From: Pseudomonadota bacterium | GTDB taxonomy: Bacteria; Pseudomonadota; Gammaproteobacteria; Xanthomonadales; Rhodanobacteraceae | Direction of reading: 5' to 3' | DNA: 56,589 bases | Assembly (NCBI GenBank): GCA_021805685.1 | Contig: JAJZET010000217.1 | Location: 1 to 56,589 of the forward strand | Part shown: positions 1 to 20,880 of the stretch, piece after piece | Layout of the letters: each line of letters starts with the position of its first letter | Numbering within the stretch: position 1 is the stretch's first letter | Notes under the pieces: generated by a model | The model's input: the letters and a program-made list of their open reading frames with translations, nothing else | The model's database searches: none | Told to the model about the DNA's origin: nothing | Translations under genes and position numbers: made by a program

Positions 1-1542
1 ATCGTGCTGGCCGTGCTGGCGCTGGTGGTGGTGAAGGCGCTCACGCACAGCCCGTGGGGCACGTTCACCGTGGCGATGACCATCCCGATCGCGCTGCTGA
101 TGGGTGCCTACCTGCGCTGGTTCCGCCCGGGCCGCATCCTCGAGGTGTCGATCATCGGCCTGGTGTTGTTGCTGCTGGCGATCTGGATGGGCAAGTACGT
201 GGCGGATTCGGCCGCGCTGGCGCCGGTGTTCGACCTCGACGCCAGGGCGCTGGCCTGGTGGCTGATCGGCTATGGCTTCGTCGCCTCGGTGCTTCCGGTG
301 TGGCTGCTGCTGGCGCCGCGCGACTACCTTTCCACCTTCCTCAAGATCGGCACCATCGCGCTGCTGGCGCTGGCGATCTTCCTGGCCGCGCCGATGCTGC
401 AGATGCCGGCGGTGACCAAGTTCATCGACGGCACCGGTCCGGTGTTCCAGGGCAACCTTTTCCCGTTCCTGTTCATCACCATCGCCTGCGGCGCGGTGTC
501 GGGCTGGCACTCGATCATCGCCTCCGGCACCACGCCCAAGCTGCTGGCCAACGAGGGCCAGGCGCGCATGGTCGGCTACGGCGGCATGCTGTGCGAGGCG
601 TTCGTGGCGATCATGGCGATGGTGGCGGCGGTGTCGCTGCACCCGGGCGTGTACTTCGCGATGAACTCGCCGAGCGCGATCATCGGCACCACCGTGGAAC
701 ACGCGGCGCAGACGATCAGCCAGTGGGGCTTCGTGCTGACGCCGAACGACCTGGTGCAGACCGCGAAGAACGTGGGCGAGCAGAGCATCCTCAGCCGCGC
801 CGGCGGCGCGCCCACGCTGGCGGTGGGCATGGCCCAGCTGCTGCACAACATCCTGCCGGGCGAGGGCATGATGGCGTTCTGGTACCACTACGCCATCTTG
901 TTCGAGGCGCTGTTCATCCTCACCACGGTGGACGCCGGCACGCGCGTCGGCCGCTTCATGATCCAGGAGATCGCCGGCCTCATCCACAAGCCGCTGCAGG
1001 CCACCGAGTCCTGGGCCGGCAACCTGCTGGCCACCGCGATCTGCGTGGCGTTGTGGGGCTACTTCCTGTATCAGGGTGCGGTCGATCCGCTGGGCGGCAT
1101 CAATACGCTGTGGCCGCTGTTCGGCATCGCCAACCAGATGCTGGCGGCGATCGCGCTGATGCTGGCCACGGTGGTGGTGGTCAAGCTCAAGCGCGAGCGC
1201 TACGTGTGGGTGCCGGGCATCCCGGCGATCTGGCTGATCGTTTGCACGCTGGCGGCGGGCTGGGAAAAGCTGACGGGCCCGATCAGCTTCACCGCCGCGG
1301 CGGACAAGTACGCCGCCGCGCTGGCCAACGGCCAGATGCTGGCGCCGGCCAAGACCGCGGCGGCGATGCGGCAGATCGTGACCAACAACCGCGTGGACAT
1401 GGCCATGACCGCGCTGTTCATGGCGCTGGTGGTGGTGATGACGCTGTTCTGCCTCAACGCGCTGGCCAAGGCCTGGAAAACCAACCACCCCACCGCCCAC
1501 GAGGAACCCTACGTGGCACTGACAGACGTCGCGGTACACTGA
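1..1542 (+). CDS. cstA: CstA/BtsT-family carbon starvation transporter, 5' end missing
   Basis: This is a polytopic inner-membrane protein of the CstA/BtsT family, proton-coupled importers of pyruvate or peptides induced when carbon runs low. The frame is open from base 1, so the N-terminus lies outside the window. About 513 residues are visible against roughly 690-720 for the family, so about 180 are missing. Counting from the first in-frame GTG at base 4, the family-typical segments PRDYLSTFLKIG (residues 105-116), GWHSIIASGTTPK (167-179) and a FEALFILTTVDAGTR segment (about 301-315) are clear, among about ten hydrophobic stretches. The stop is 4 bases before ybdD, the usual cstA-ybdD pairing. 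CstA and BtsT cannot be told apart here, so the exact substrate is open. Confidence 0.93.
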   Translation: MVLAVLALVVVKALTHSPWGTFTVAMTIPIALLMGAYLRWFRPGRILEVSIIGLVLLLLAIWMGKYVADSAALAPVFDLDARALAWWLIGYGFVASVLPVWLLLAPRDYLSTFLKIGTIALLALAIFLAAPMLQMPAVTKFIDGTGPVFQGNLFPFLFITIACGAVSGWHSIIASGTTPKLLANEGQARMVGYGGMLCEAFVAIMAMVAAVSLHPGVYFAMNSPSAIIGTTVEHAAQTISQWGFVLTPNDLVQTAKNVGEQSILSRAGGAPTLAVGMAQLLHNILPGEGMMAFWYHYAILFEALFILTTVDAGTRVGRFMIQEIAGLIHKPLQATESWAGNLLATAICVALWGYFLYQGAVDPLGGINTLWPLFGIANQMLAAIALMLATVVVVKLKRERYVWVPGIPAIWLIVCTLAAGWEKLTGPISFTAAADKYAAALANGQMLAPAKTAAAMRQIVTNNRVDMAMTALFMALVVVMTLFCLNALAKAWKTNHPTAHEEPYVALTDVAVH

Positions 1543-16504: not shown

Positions 16505-17032
16505 TTACTGCTTCTTCTTGGGGCCGATCATCATGACCATTTGGCGCCCTTCCAGGCGCGGGAAGGATTCCACCTGGCCGTTCTCGCCGATGTCGGCCTG
16601 GATGCGCTTGGCCATTTCCTGGCCCAGGTCCTGGTGCGACATCTCGCGGCCGCGGAAACGGATGGTGACCTTGACCTTGTCGCCTTCCTCAAGGAAGCGA
16701 AGCATGTTGCGCAGCTTGATCTCGTAGTCGCCCACGTCCGTGACCGGACGGAACTTCACTTCCTTGATCTCGACCTGCTTCTGCTTCTTCTTGGCGGCCT
16801 GCGCCTTCTTCTGGGCTTCGAACTTGAACTTGCCGTAGTCCATGATGCGGCAGACCGGCGGGTCGCCGTTCGGCTGGATTTCGACCAGATCCATCCCCGC
16901 TTCCTGCGCCAAAGCCAGCGCCTCGTCGCGGGTGAGGATGCCGAGCTGCTCGGCATCGGCGCCGATCACGCGTACGCGTGGAACGCGGATTTCCAGGTTA
17001 CGGCGATTACCCTTGTTGTCGGTGGTAGCGAT
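16505..17032 (-). CDS. infC: Translation initiation factor IF-3, AUC start
   Basis: A 175-residue factor that binds the 30S subunit and proofreads start codon choice. The [19 protein letters not shown]-terminal segment, CRIMDYGKF, and the C-terminal [15 protein letters not shown] and [14 protein letters not shown] are typical. No ATG, GTG or TTG precedes the conserved N-terminus at a usable distance; the only fitting start is ATC at 17032, 8 bases after GGAGG, giving (M)[17 protein letters not shown] rare AUU/AUC/AUA start is the hallmark of infC autoregulation. The gene starts 45 bases after the thrS stop. Confidence 0.94.
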
Positions 17033-17077: not shown

Positions 17078-18979
17078 TCAGCGTTGCGTCTCAGCCTGCA
17101 GCCGCCCGATGAAGTCGGCCAGCGGCATGCTGCCCAGATCCTCACCCGAACGGGTACGCACAGAAACCGCCCCGGACTCCTTCTCGCGATCTCCGACGAC
17201 AAGCAGGTAGGGCACTTTCTGCAACGTATGTTCGCGGATTTTATAGCCGACCTTCTCATTGCGCAAATCGGCCTCCACCCGGAAACCTTTATCGACAAGG
17301 GCTTGCGCCACTTCGCGGACGTAATCGGCCTGGGCATCGGTGATGCTGAACACCATCGCCTGCACCGGTGCCAGCCACGGCGGCAGCAGGCCGGCATGGT
17401 GCTCGATCAGGATGCCGATGAAGCGCTCCATCGAGCCGACGATGGCCCGGTGCAGCATTACCGGATGCCTGCGCTGACTGTGCTCGTCCACGTACTCGGC
17501 ACCCAAACGCTCGGGCATCATGAAATCCACCTGCATGGTGCCGACCTGCCAGGCACGGCCGATCGAGTCCTTCATGTGGTATTCGATCTTCGGGCCGTAG
17601 AAGGCGCCCTCGCCCGGCAGCTCCTCCCACTGCACGCCGGCAGCGCGCAGCGCGGAACGCAGCGCGTCCTCGGCCTTGTCCCATACCTCTTCGGAACCGA
17701 TGCGCTTGTCCGGGCGCAGCGCGATCTTCAGCGCGATGTTGTCGAAGCCGAAGTCGGTATAGACCTTCATCGCCTGGCGATGGAATGCCGTGACCTCCGG
17801 CTCGATCTGCTCCGGCGTGCAGAAAATGTGGCCGTCGTCCTGGGTGAACGCACGCACGCGCATGATGCCGTGCAGCGCGCCCGAGGGCTCGTTGCGGTGG
17901 CAGCCGCCGAACTCGCCGTAGCGGATCGGCAGGTCGCGATAGCTGTGCAGGCCGGTATTGAAGATCTGCACGTGCCCGGGGCAGTTCATCGGCTTCAGCG
18001 CGAAAGTGTGCTTCTCCGACTCGGTGAAGAACATGTTTTCCTGATAGTTGTCCCAGTGGCCGGACTTCTTCCACAGCGAGACATCGAGCACCTGCGGACA
18101 GCGCACCTCCTGGTAGCCGCTCTTCCTGTACACGCCGCGCATGTACTGCTCGACCTGCTGCCAGATCGCCCAGCCGCGCGGGTGCCAGAACACCATGCCC
18201 GGGCCTTCCTCCTGCTGGTGGAACAGGTCCAGCGCCTTGCCAATCTTGCGGTGGTCGCGCTTCTCCGCCTCCTCCAGTTGATGCAGGTAGGCCTTGAGGT
18301 CCTTGTCGTTCAACCACGCCGTGCCGTAGATGCGGGTCAGCATCGCGTTGTTGCTGTCGCCTCGCCAGTAGGCGCCGGCCACCTTCATCAGCTTGAACGC
18401 GCGCAGCTTGCCCGTGTTAGGCACGTGCGGGCCGCGGCACAGGTCGGTGAACTCGCCCTGCGAGTAGAGCGACAGCTCCTCGTTCGCCGGGATGCTCTCG
18501 ATGATCTCGGCCTTGTAGGCCTCGCCGATGCGGCGGAAGAACGCCACTGCGTCGTCGCGCGACTTCACACTGCGCGTCACCGGCAGCGCCTCCTTGACGA
18601 TCTTCTCCATCTCCGCCTCGATCTTCTCCAGGTCGTCGGGCGTGAACGGGCGTTCGTAGGCGAAGTCGTAGTAGAAGCCGTTGTCGATCACCGGGCCGAT
18701 GGTGACCTGGGCGCCCGGATACAGCCGCTGCACGGCCTGGGCCAGCAGGTGCGCGGTGGAATGGCGCAGGATCTCCAGCGCCTCGGGGCTCTTCTCGGTG
18801 ACGATCTCGAGGCTGGCGTCGTGCTCGATGGGGAAGCTGGCGTCCACCAGCCTGCCGTCCACCTTGCCGGCCAGGGTGGCCTTGGCCAGGCCGGCACCGA
18901 TGGAGGCGGCCACCTCCTGCACGGACACGGGGTAGTCGAACGGGCGCTTGCTGCCGTCGGGTAGCGTAATCTCGATCAT
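17078..18979 (-). CDS. thrS: Threonyl-tRNA synthetase
   Basis: A 633-residue class II synthetase (E. coli 642). Domains: N-terminal TGS domain (about 1-62), the second N-terminal editing domain with the HxxxH motif in [10 protein letters not shown] (about 63-225), the catalytic core with MNCPGH zinc/ATP-site motif, motif 2 around [15 protein letters not shown] and a late motif 3, and the C-terminal anticodon-binding domain ending near the [12 protein letters not shown] segment. It heads thrS-infC. About 200 bases of leader with a short Thr-containing ORF and terminator precede it, suggesting threonine-dependent attenuation. Confidence 0.98.
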
Positions 18980-19049
18980 GATTCGTTCCTGCCGCGGCGT
19001 TCCGATGCGTCGCCGCTTTTATTTCGAGGAGCCCGGCCATGGATGGCGG

Positions 19050-19077
19050 ACAAAAACAAAGGCGCCGAGGCGCCTTT
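19050..19077 (-). terminator. Terminator in the thrS leader (candidate attenuator)
   Basis: An inverted repeat AAAGGCGCC/GGCGCCTTT (19069-19077 with 19058-19066) is followed on the minus strand by GTTTTTG. It lies between the predicted thrS promoter and the thrS start, 71 bases upstream of the ATG, so it would stop the thrS transcript itself unless prevented. Confidence 0.75.
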
Positions 19078-19103
19078 CGACAAGGTCAGGGCTCGGCGGA
19101 AAT

Positions 19104-19130
19104 TCAGCGTGGGCGGTTGGTAGTGGACAT
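19104..19130 (-). other. Candidate thrS leader peptide ORF (MSTTNRPR)
   Basis: An 8-codon ORF with two consecutive threonine codons (ACT ACC), ending 26 bases before the terminator stem. Six bases after its stop lies CGCCGAG (19092-19098), able to pair with CTCGGCG (19063-19069) in the terminator. The Shine-Dalgarno is weak (GAG, 8 bases upstream). Confidence 0.45.
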
Positions 19131-19188
19131 GTCGCACACTCGGCCGGCACTTGCGCGCGGGCCACCTCGTTTCCGGAAAGATGCCTGA

Positions 19189-19218
19189 AAAATAGTCCAG
19201 CGCCGCCCACGCCGTCAA
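19189..19218 (-). promoter_or_regulatory. Predicted sigma-70 promoter of thrS
   Basis: On the minus strand TTGACG (19213-19218) and TATTTT (19189-19194) are 18 bases apart. This puts transcription start near 19181 and gives a leader of about 200 bases. Confidence 0.6.
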
Positions 19219-19239
19219 TCGAGCGATGGCCGCGCCCGC

Positions 19240-19245
19240 TACAAT
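19240..19245 (+). promoter_or_regulatory. Predicted -10 element of the epimerase gene
   Basis: TACAAT, 27 bases before the ATG; the same hexamer precedes pyrH and lpxD in this window. No good -35 is seen. Confidence 0.4.
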
Positions 19246-19272
19246 GATGCCTCATTCCCCAAGGGCGAAGTC

Positions 19273-20280
19273 ATGCGCATCCTCGTCACCGGCACCGCCG
19301 GCTTCATCGGCGCCGCCCTGGCCGAGCGCCTGCTGGCGCGCGGCGACGAAGTGCTGGGCATCGACAACCACAACGACTACTACGACCCGGCGCTGAAGGA
19401 AGCGCGACTCGCCCGCTTCGTCAACCATGCCGGCTACACCCATCGCCGGGCCGACCTGGCCGATGCCGCGGCGATCAACGACGCCTTCGCCGGCTTCAAG
19501 CCGCAACGCGTGGCGAACCTGGCGGCGCAGGCGGGCGTGCGCTATTCGCTGAAGAATCCACAGGCCTACGTGCAGAGCAACCTGGTCGGCTTCGGCAACA
19601 TCCTCGAAGCCTGCCGCCACGGCGGCGTGGAGCACCTGGTCTACGCATCCTCCAGCTCGGTCTATGGCGCCAACCGCAAGCTGCCGTTCGCGGTGGAGGA
19701 CGCGGTGGACCACCCGGTGAGCCTGTACGCGGCCACCAAGAAAGCCAACGAACTGATGGCGCACAGCTACAGCCATCTCTACGGCCTGCCCACCACCGGC
19801 CTGCGCTTCTTCACCGTCTACGGGCCATGGGGCCGGCCGGACATGTCGCCGATGCTGTTCGCCGACCGCATCAGCCGCGGTGAGCCGATCGACGTGTTCA
19901 ACTTCGGCAACCACAGCCGCGACTTCACCTACGTCGACGACATCGTGGAAGGCGTAATCCGCACGCTCGACCACCCGGCCACGCCCGACCCGGCCTACGA
20001 CGCGAAGTCGCCGAACCCAGGCACGTCGAACGCGCCCTACCGCGTCTACAACATCGGCAACGACCAGCCGGTGCAGCTGTTGCGCTTCATCGAACTGCTG
20101 GAACAACACCTTGGCCGCACGGTGGAAAAGAACCTGCTGCCGATGCAGCCCGGCGACGTGCCGGACACCTGGGCCGACGTGTCGGCGTTGCGCCGGGACG
20201 TCGGTTACGCGCCGGACACCTCGATCGAAGAGGGCGTGGCGCGCTTCGTGGCCTGGTACCGCGACTACTTCCGGCGATGA
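19273..20280 (+). CDS. NAD-dependent epimerase, probably UDP-glucuronate 4-epimerase
   Basis: A 335-residue extended short-chain dehydrogenase. The N-terminal GTAGFIG binds NAD, DNHNDYYD follows the second strand, SSSSVYG carries the catalytic Ser/Thr region, and YAATKKANE is the YxxxK motif. The set DNHNDYYD, LAAQAGVRYSLKNP and TVYGPWGRPDM is typical of the CapI-like UDP-glucuronate 4-epimerases that make UDP-galacturonate for surface polysaccharides. It is alone here, divergent from thrS and 13 bases from the convergent hemJ stop; UDP-glucose 4-epimerase is less likely. It starts at ATG 19273. Confidence 0.88.
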   Translation: MRILVTGTAGFIGAALAERLLARGDEVLGIDNHNDYYDPALKEARLARFVNHAGYTHRRADLADAAAINDAFAGFKPQRVANLAAQAGVRYSLKNPQAYVQSNLVGFGNILEACRHGGVEHLVYASSSSVYGANRKLPFAVEDAVDHPVSLYAATKKANELMAHSYSHLYGLPTTGLRFFTVYGPWGRPDMSPMLFADRISRGEPIDVFNFGNHSRDFTYVDDIVEGVIRTLDHPATPDPAYDAKSPNPGTSNAPYRVYNIGNDQPVQLLRFIELLEQHLGRTVEKNLLPMQPGDVPDTWADVSALRRDVGYAPDTSIEEGVARFVAWYRDYFRR

Positions 20281-20805: not shown

Positions 20806-20880
20806 TGGTGGGCGGTACAAGGATCGAACTTGTGACCCCTACCATGTCAAGGTAGTGCTCTACCGCTGAGCTAACCGCCC
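20806..20880 (-). tRNA. tRNA-Val (GAC anticodon)
   Basis: A 75-base cloverleaf: acceptor GGGCGGT paired with ACCGCCC, D-arm GCTCAGCGGTAGAGC, anticodon loop TTGACAT giving GAC, GTTCGATCC T-arm, discriminator A and encoded CCA. Confidence 0.96.

Follow-up and report, generated by a model that had tools for sequence, protein, structure and literature searches.

The leader of thrS, the gene for threonine--tRNA ligase, was analyzed in a 56,589-nt contig (JAJZET010000217.1 of GenBank assembly GCA_021805685.1; hereafter the window) from a gammaproteobacterium of the family Rhodanobacteraceae. We consider it highly probable that this leader is a genuine and widely conserved threonine-responsive attenuator, in which a translating ribosome would sense charged tRNA-Thr and control transcription, and the cell very probably makes more threonyl-tRNA synthetase (ThrRS) when threonine is scarce. 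The original prediction, made from the letters alone, had placed a promoter, a short open reading frame (ORF), an intrinsic terminator and a pairing between a sequence behind the ORF and the terminator on the minus strand between positions 18979 and 19218, and all of these elements were found there base for base. The promoter-like site consists of a -35 hexamer TTGACG (19213-19218) and a -10 hexamer TATTTT (19189-19194) with an 18-base spacer, both recovered by the promoter scan as well as in the sequence, so that the transcript would begin at about 19182. The 8-codon ORF (19104-19130; ATG TCC ACT ACC AAC CGC CCA CGC TGA) encodes MSTTNRPR, with adjacent Thr codons ACT at 19124-19122 and ACC at 19121-19119. 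After five bases, and not the six that had been counted, the stop codon is followed by CGCCGAG (19092-19098; S2), which is the exact 7-base reverse complement of CTCGGCG (19069-19063) inside the terminator (19050-19077; stem 19077-19058, T-rich tail to about 19050). S2 and CTCGGCG would form the 5′ and 3′ strands of an antiterminator. The regulated gene, thrS, occupies 17078-18979 of the same strand (TIGR00418 at 721 bits, cut-off 383.65).

This arrangement exceeds chance. One promoter-like site was found in 18700-19500, with 0.1 expected, and four terminator-like sites, with 0.5 expected. Furthermore, when both strands of the window and of 80 loci were scanned, 56 of 500 terminators were preceded by a short ORF with two Thr codons that were adjacent or one codon apart (TT or T.T), and 44 of these 56 were thrS leaders, the background at other terminators being 12 of 456 (2.6%).

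In the proposed mechanism, the ribosome would begin the 8-codon ORF on a transcript that starts near 19182. With ample Thr-tRNA it would reach the stop codon and cover S2, so that the terminator (19077-19058) would form and transcription would stop before thrS. When Thr-tRNA is scarce, it would stall at ACT-ACC, leaving S2 free to pair with 19063-19069 in the loop and arm of the terminator, and RNA polymerase would read through into thrS-infC-rpmI-rplT. Upstream of the ORF lies S1, CGAGGTGG (19162-19169), a possible Shine-Dalgarno sequence of the ORF with a conserved GGTGG core. In a leader that is not being translated, CGAGGT of S1 (19169-19164) could base-pair with ACCTTG (19086-19081), the second part of S2, and termination might then be favoured; the support for this pairing is marginal. 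Between S1 and the start codon we found a conserved, covarying hairpin that was absent from the original prediction (hp1, 19142-19163, GGCC-C-GCG / YGC-C-GGCC), which is flanked by GAGGTGG of S1 on one side and GAGTGTGCGACATG on the other, and whose probable role is to fix the spacing of the leader's ribosome-binding site or to control access to it. The start codon is immediately preceded by the conserved GAGTGTGCGAC (19131-19141), whose GAG is an alternative candidate for the Shine-Dalgarno core.

The conservation of this leader was analyzed at the thrS loci of its family. The gene is present in 116 of 117 Rhodanobacteraceae genomes, and the upstream regions of all 116 loci, i.e., the window and 115 fetched loci, were read. 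In 114 of them a pattern search detected, ahead of thrS, a short ORF whose start context is conserved; the two misses were L152, without a leader, and L180, in which the variant MTRTWTSPN was seen by eye. A second thrS copy in one genome (G006, locus L197), 54% identical to that of the window and not counted among the 116, has no leader. The peptide has 8 residues in 86 of the 114 leaders. Every peptide contains at least one Thr, and 101 contain at least two; Thr occupies codon 3 in 106 and codons 3-4 in 72, and its share is 57% at codons 2-4 versus 10.6% from codon 5 onward. When each amino acid in turn was sought as an adjacent or once-interrupted pair in a short ORF before a terminator, Thr was found at 95 of the 116 loci and Ala, the next, at 19. 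A terminator follows the ORF in 109 of the 114 leaders. In addition, the 106 main-type leaders were scanned for a promoter-like site of the form TTGAC[AG]-17/18-TANNNT, which 79 of them have, against 0.1 expected from shuffles; the remaining eight leaders are of a second type. Among the close relatives, in which a loss of the ORF or of its Thr codons had been named as the outcome that would speak against the prediction, the ORF persists in all seven same-genus genomes, each with one Thr codon or more, and five retain both (MSTSNRPR, MSTTNRPR, MATTRNHR, MATTRDPR, MATTRNHR, MATTRFP and MDTSRFPS). The wider comparison that had been proposed as a check, of the Thr codons, the terminator and the pairing of 19092-19098 with 19063-19069, came out on the whole in favour of the prediction.

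The second leader type was observed at L156, L159, L180, L189-L192, L194, L195, L235, L236 and L244, and in part at L237 and L241-L243. It carries a conserved GAGCCGTAGTTCGAAAGAACACGATCACC before ATG ACG CGA (usually ACC), and an apparent hairpin likewise parts a GGAG sequence from the start codon.

These counts bear on the possibility that the terminator merely ends an upstream transcript, ancestrally that of a tRNA-Val gene, and that the ORF is a chance frame. A tRNA-Val(GAC) gene does precede the leader at all 18 leader-bearing loci run through ARAGORN, which had been picked because a tRNA was visible. However, 79 of 106 leaders have the promoter-like site between the two, conservation extends to the ORF, its Thr codons and the complementarity of S2, and such an ORF stands before a small fraction of other terminators (the 12 of 456 given above), so that we regard this explanation as barely credible.

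A second alternative is that translation of the leader governs termination in a general way, through ribosome coupling, initiation or IF-3 capacity, with the Thr codons kept as a side effect of RNA sequence conservation. The start-codon region is in fact the most conserved part of the leader: in an alignment of 69 leaders, 8 of the 11 columns of GAGTGTGCGAC are invariant or at least 90% conserved, as are the columns of the GGTGG core of S1. In addition, infC, with a probable AUC start, follows thrS, and ACT accounts for 99 of 121 Thr codons at codon 3 in a table of 131 leaders. On the other hand, Thr is kept through synonymous codon variation in the family, the codons at position 4, counted by genus, being ACC (15), ACG (11), ACT (3) and ACA (2). 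Furthermore, Thr codons persist in leaders of unrelated sequence (MTRT.., MKTTTKN, MLTTTTG, MTSTTT, MTPRTTT..), and no other amino acid is comparably enriched in the family or in the order. We therefore hold a general control by leader translation to be quite unlikely, and a response to charged tRNA-Thr remains the preferred reading.

The RNA structure was examined in the same alignment (A1), which holds 69 of 75 leaders after near-duplicates, leaders without a terminator and those of the second type had been dropped, and from which long or odd leaders (L012, L129, L134, L136, L145 and L174) were excluded by hand. It includes 9 of 17 named Lysobacterales loci that were hand-picked after viewing; all 17 entered the 131-leader table and the 122-leader permutation below, and none the family counts. 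One locus, L066, was not used because its thrS match begins at residue 29. In hp1, 96.0% of the alignment cells were paired and 5 of 7 pairs had changes on both sides; the terminator gave 92.8% and 5 of 8 pairs. Taken together, the two helices had 94.4% of cells paired and 10 pairs with two-sided changes, and none of 500 shuffles scored as high by any measure. These data argue that hp1 belongs to the leader element.

S2, right after the stop codon, is complementary to the loop and arms of the terminator even though the sequences vary between lineages. When partners were swapped among 122 leaders, none of 2000 permutations was as good as the native S2:terminator pairing, nor was any as good as the native S1:S2 pairing, but the S1:terminator control was also matched in merely 6 of 2000, which indicated that relatedness matters, and the test was therefore repeated by genus. 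In this form (109 leaders; 24 of 26 genera, the other two having no leader with a terminator), 19 of 24 genera had a native S2:terminator duplex that was more stable than the swaps between genera (mean -1.30 kcal/mol; sign test p=0.0066, Wilcoxon p=0.0012), whereas the controls were null, with 12 of 24 genera for S1:terminator and 9 of 24 for ORF:terminator. A pairing of S1 with the terminator, included as a control, is not supported. The covariation of S2 and terminator in the alignment was 0.227 versus 0.177, and 1 of 500 shuffles was as high.

The distribution of the leader in the order was analyzed with a covariance model. The model found one strong copy in the window's own genome (106 bits), the next match having 14.4 bits (E 0.36), so that a regulon controlled by this element is not supported. 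It matched 124 of 250 genomes of the order, to which family f1 contributed 50, f2 53 and the remaining families 21. In this last group, 17 matches were directly upstream of thrS and three elsewhere (G174, G206 and G228), and G171 had a match without any thrS match in the genome. In addition, the thrS upstream regions of 38 genomes with weak or no model hits, 37 from families f3-f12 and one from f2, were read. They represent 38 of the 40 genomes searched: no thrS was matched in G171, whose locus L273 was left out, and the match in G132 lacked the N-terminus; the 40 had been taken from the genomes listed in the search of the order, to which 106 genomes without a match did not belong. A terminator was scored at 32 of the 38 loci, and at 27 it was preceded by an ORF with TT or T.T, the next amino acids being Ala and Arg with 3 loci each. 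The peptides include MTRTAFNA, MRTTTMAIH, MASTLTTVD, MKTTTKN, MLTTTTG and MTSTTT, and the sequence around the ORF is mostly unrelated to that of the window. At 11 of the 38 loci the peptide appears to be leaderless, with its ATG 6 or 7 bases after a TACAAT-like -10 hexamer (L251, L253, L254, L256, L257, L260, L261, L263, L264, L265 and L272, the last with a single Thr). The same scan flagged eight of the 116 family loci, and these were judged false because the promoter-like site ends 58 bases before the ATG in the window (56-64 in the first ten listed), and because the hexamers picked up there either coincide in part with the conserved GAGTGTG stretch or relate to other reading frames.

In Escherichia coli, ThrRS binds a tRNA-like operator hairpin at the start of thrS and acts on translation, and the hairpin splits the thrS ribosome-binding site; the sequence at this position in strain K-12 is GTGATC-TTTCGTGTG-GGTCAC. 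The original prediction had proposed that the window's lineage uses a different solution. We searched for the operator with a strict pattern, i.e., an anticodon-like hairpin just before thrS with 6-pair arms and SGTR in the loop, in three sets: the 154 loci of the order, 40 loci of the class, and 54 further loci from the thrS search, which by title are mostly betaproteobacterial. The class sample had one locus per family and was made of the even-numbered handles, without G330, G364 (non-N-terminal match) and G406. The pattern was found within 110 bases before thrS at 16 of the 40 class loci, and at 4 of the 54 further loci (three Halomonas relatives and L018), but at none of the 116 family loci and none of the 38 other-family loci, so that the contrast with E. 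coli holds. A relaxed scan, in which 5 of 6 pairs sufficed, gave five weak hits among the 116 family loci against a shuffle mean of 1.7, and was set aside. The loop is anticodon-like, often TCTCGTATG, and the class loci with the hairpin are L280, L282, L286, L289-L291, L293, L294, L296, L297, L302-L305, L307 and L310. Conversely, an ORF with TT or T.T before a terminator was found at none of the 20 strict-operator loci. The leader locus of E. coli (L315) had no match to an Rfam family.

This distribution also bears on hp1, which could itself be a tRNA-Thr-like hairpin to which the synthetase binds, by analogy with the E. coli operator, the peptide being incidental. The conservation and covariation of hp1, and its place between two ribosome-binding-like sequences, would suit such a role. 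However, the E. coli-type hairpin was found at none of the 116 family and 38 other-family loci, as against 16 of 40 in the class; hp1 is located about 160-185 bases upstream of thrS instead of at the gene start; several f8, f10 and f12 loci that keep the Thr codons and the terminator lack it by eye; and the conservation of the Thr codons would be unneeded. Autoregulation through hp1 as a tRNA-Thr mimic is thus disfavoured, and we judge it very improbable beside attenuation by ribosome stalling.

Thr-rich leaders were also found outside the order. Among the 54 further loci, 26 had an ORF with TT or T.T before a terminator; Arg scored 16, because the peptides also contain RR or R.R, and other amino acids 2 or fewer. 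The betaproteobacterial leaders (L023-L081) are analogous but different, with peptides such as M[V]TPRTTT.., MTPRTLTETT.. and MTPRTLTETTSERR (e.g., L025 at about 1835-1870 and L046 at about 1793-1840), and four Bordetella/Achromobacter loci carry ARTTT peptides (..ARTTTRNFRPMSR). The sole Thr hit among the 40 class loci was a chance frame in L312, a locus that by eye carries an ORF of the betaproteobacterial type, MTPRTQEIT...

The effect of the ribosome was analyzed in a folding model in which its footprint was forced to be single-stranded and the equilibrium probability of the terminator was computed, kinetics being ignored. For the window, this probability was 0.90 in the ribosome-free state, and a ribosome whose A site was occupied by codon 3, codon 4 (the second Thr) or the stop codon gave 0.83, 0.31 and 0.94. 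The means of these four states over 109 leaders were, in the same order, 0.83, 0.78, 0.74 and 0.85, and in 18 of 24 genera the stop codon gave a higher value than the codon-4 stall (p=0.011). These results agree with the attenuation model, but they depend on the footprint.

Several observations weigh against an attenuator at thrS or against its generality. In the folding model the effect over the set is modest: the codon-4 stall lowered the terminator probability by more than 0.2 relative to the stop codon in 23 of 109 leaders and raised it in 5, the effect was likewise small when the ribosome was moved along the 83 leaders of eight codons, and L110, which is near the family consensus, had 0.91 in all four states. 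With codon 4 of the window in the A site, the value was 0.31, 0.79 or 0.82 according to the footprint, and the minimum fell at codons 4 and 5, at codon 5, or at codons 5 and 6, two of the three footprints placing it at codon 5 (Asn) and not at a Thr codon. For single leaders the S2:terminator effect was weak, the pairing being better than shuffled S2 at the 5% level in 23 of 109, little more than the 15 of the ORF:terminator control, with 6 for S1:terminator. S1:S2, which was better than shuffles of the first strand in 35 of 109 leaders, was stronger than swaps in 17 of 24 genera (sign test p=0.064, Wilcoxon 0.037), and its covariation in the alignment was within the shuffle range (140 of 500 as high), so that this anti-antiterminator pairing is marginal. 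The terminator scan was negative for 5 of the 114 family leaders, and L152 has no leader. A named Rhodanobacter metagenome-assembled genome outside the counted set (L007), with a thrS 88% identical, has no recognisable leader, which counts against universality. Among the 38 other-family loci, no Thr-rich ORF was found at L249, L252, L255, L258, L269 and L270, and a single Thr at L246 and L272. Moreover, a basic attenuator does not demand the strong conservation of hp1 and of GAGYGTGYGAC, and the window's peptide holds merely two Thr codons; many classical attenuator leaders carry more codons for the regulated amino acid.

The leader nevertheless holds the sequence features of an attenuator, i.e., an upstream promoter-like site, a Thr-rich ORF, a terminator and an antiterminator strand after the stop codon, and it would work like the enterobacterial leader-peptide attenuators (thrL-thrABC, pheM-pheST, trpL and hisL), the pairing of strands 1 and 2 being the marginal one. 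It shares with them an ORF with cognate codons, a terminator, an antiterminator and a coupling to ribosome position. It differs in regulating thrS, in the 8-codon peptide, in the hairpin that parts S1 from the start codon, and in the place of S1, which precedes the ORF in a possible ribosome-binding site, whereas strand 1 of classical attenuators lies within the leader ORF. The E. coli operator acts on the same gene and operon from the 5′ leader, but no such hairpin was detected in the order to which the window belongs. No Rfam family related to the leader emerged at gathering or at permissive thresholds; RF00506 (Thr_leader) had no match at E 0.001 in the window's own genome, which is 87% complete, the E. 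coli control being positive. A leader-DNA search of a plasmid collection gave no match. A T-box binds tRNA directly, without translation, and also controls thrS by threonyl-tRNA charging, but the window has no T-box match: at gathering thresholds it gave tRNAs only, and the three hits of a permissive scan of 18960-19272, none of them a T-box, stayed well under their cut-offs. In Bacillota, thrS is reported to be under T-boxes, and the thrS-infC-rpmI-rplT order occurs there too (PMC12452182).

A direct precedent for a Thr leader peptide before thrS is thrL of Streptomyces lividans TK24. An RNA-seq reannotation of that strain proposes an 18-residue, leaderless peptide in front of thrS, which contains two adjacent Thr codons (MKRVRPFLETTPGFVPAR) and whose terminator is unclear, a single hairpin being present that lacks a U-tract (PMC8079986). 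In being leaderless, thrL resembles the peptides of 11 of the 38 order relatives and differs from that of the window, whose leader carries hp1; the host is an actinomycete, the peptide sequences are unrelated, and the terminator of the window is clear. The excerpted part of a genome-wide attenuator survey names threonyl-tRNA synthetase once, for autoregulation in E. coli (PMC2965389). No description of a Thr leader before thrS in Xanthomonadales/Lysobacterales or in betaproteobacteria was found in the literature searched, the coverage of which did not extend to older attenuator-prediction work, so that an earlier prediction is possible.

The genome of the window comprises 3.07 Mb in 294 contigs. 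Among named relatives, two Rhodanobacter strains come closest to it by thrS (96% and 95% identity). In the operon, thrS, infC, rpmI, rplT and pheS were each named by an NCBIfam model that scored above its cut-off. The next gene after thrS, infC (IF-3; 16505-17032, minus strand; TIGR00168 at 254 bits), probably starts at a non-canonical AUC (17032-17030; GGAGG-ATAGTGGT-ATC); the start codon of E. coli infC, AUU, is likewise non-canonical. The window's tRNA-Val(GAC) is at 20806-20880, and a HemJ-like gene and a divergent gene resembling sugar epimerases/dehydratases lie between it and the leader. A tRNA-Val(GAC) stood just upstream of thrS and its leader at 21 of the 22 loci run through ARAGORN, all chosen by eye for a visible tRNA (L281 was not called): L011, L014, L015, L027, L046, L235, L237-L239, L241, L245, L247, L251, L262, L266-L268 and L271, and the operator-type L289, L291 and L297. 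The distance from terminator to thrS ranges from 19 to 213 bases. By eye, palindromes resembling repetitive extragenic palindromic elements (GCCCGCCGTCCGGGCGGGC type) follow directly behind the terminator at several loci (window 19020-19050, L085, L096, L104 and L107). At L010, short-repeat arrays of the types CCTTGAAGCCGCAAAA and CCCGAATC/CCCGAGTC occupy about 1690-1990 before thrS, and a leader ORF, MSTTIGQR, sits further upstream, at 1365.

These results point to a specific control mechanism for thrS, infC, rpmI and rplT across most sampled families of the order, and the AUC start of infC, if real, would permit IF-3 autoregulation. The same gene would be served by different sensors according to lineage, namely binding of the synthetase to an operator, codon-reading attenuation and, in Bacillota, the T-box. 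As a tentative proposal, which may well turn out to be wrong, control of thrS in the class could be divided between a tRNA-like, ThrRS-binding operator in many lineages and, in the window's order and in betaproteobacteria, an attenuator, the two being mutually exclusive; the attenuator would have repeatedly changed how its peptide is initiated (from a direct Shine-Dalgarno sequence, from one split by a hairpin, or leaderless) while keeping the Thr codons and the terminator, and in the window's group hp1 and S1:S2 would make initiation itself regulated. Since operator and attenuator are complementary in the sample, an evolutionary switch between sensing the balance of enzyme and tRNA and sensing charged tRNA becomes testable, and the compact geometry of the leader, with mostly 8 codons, Thr at codons 3-4, a gap in the window of about five bases between stop codon and S2, and a hairpin ahead of the ORF, would make it a simple model attenuator.

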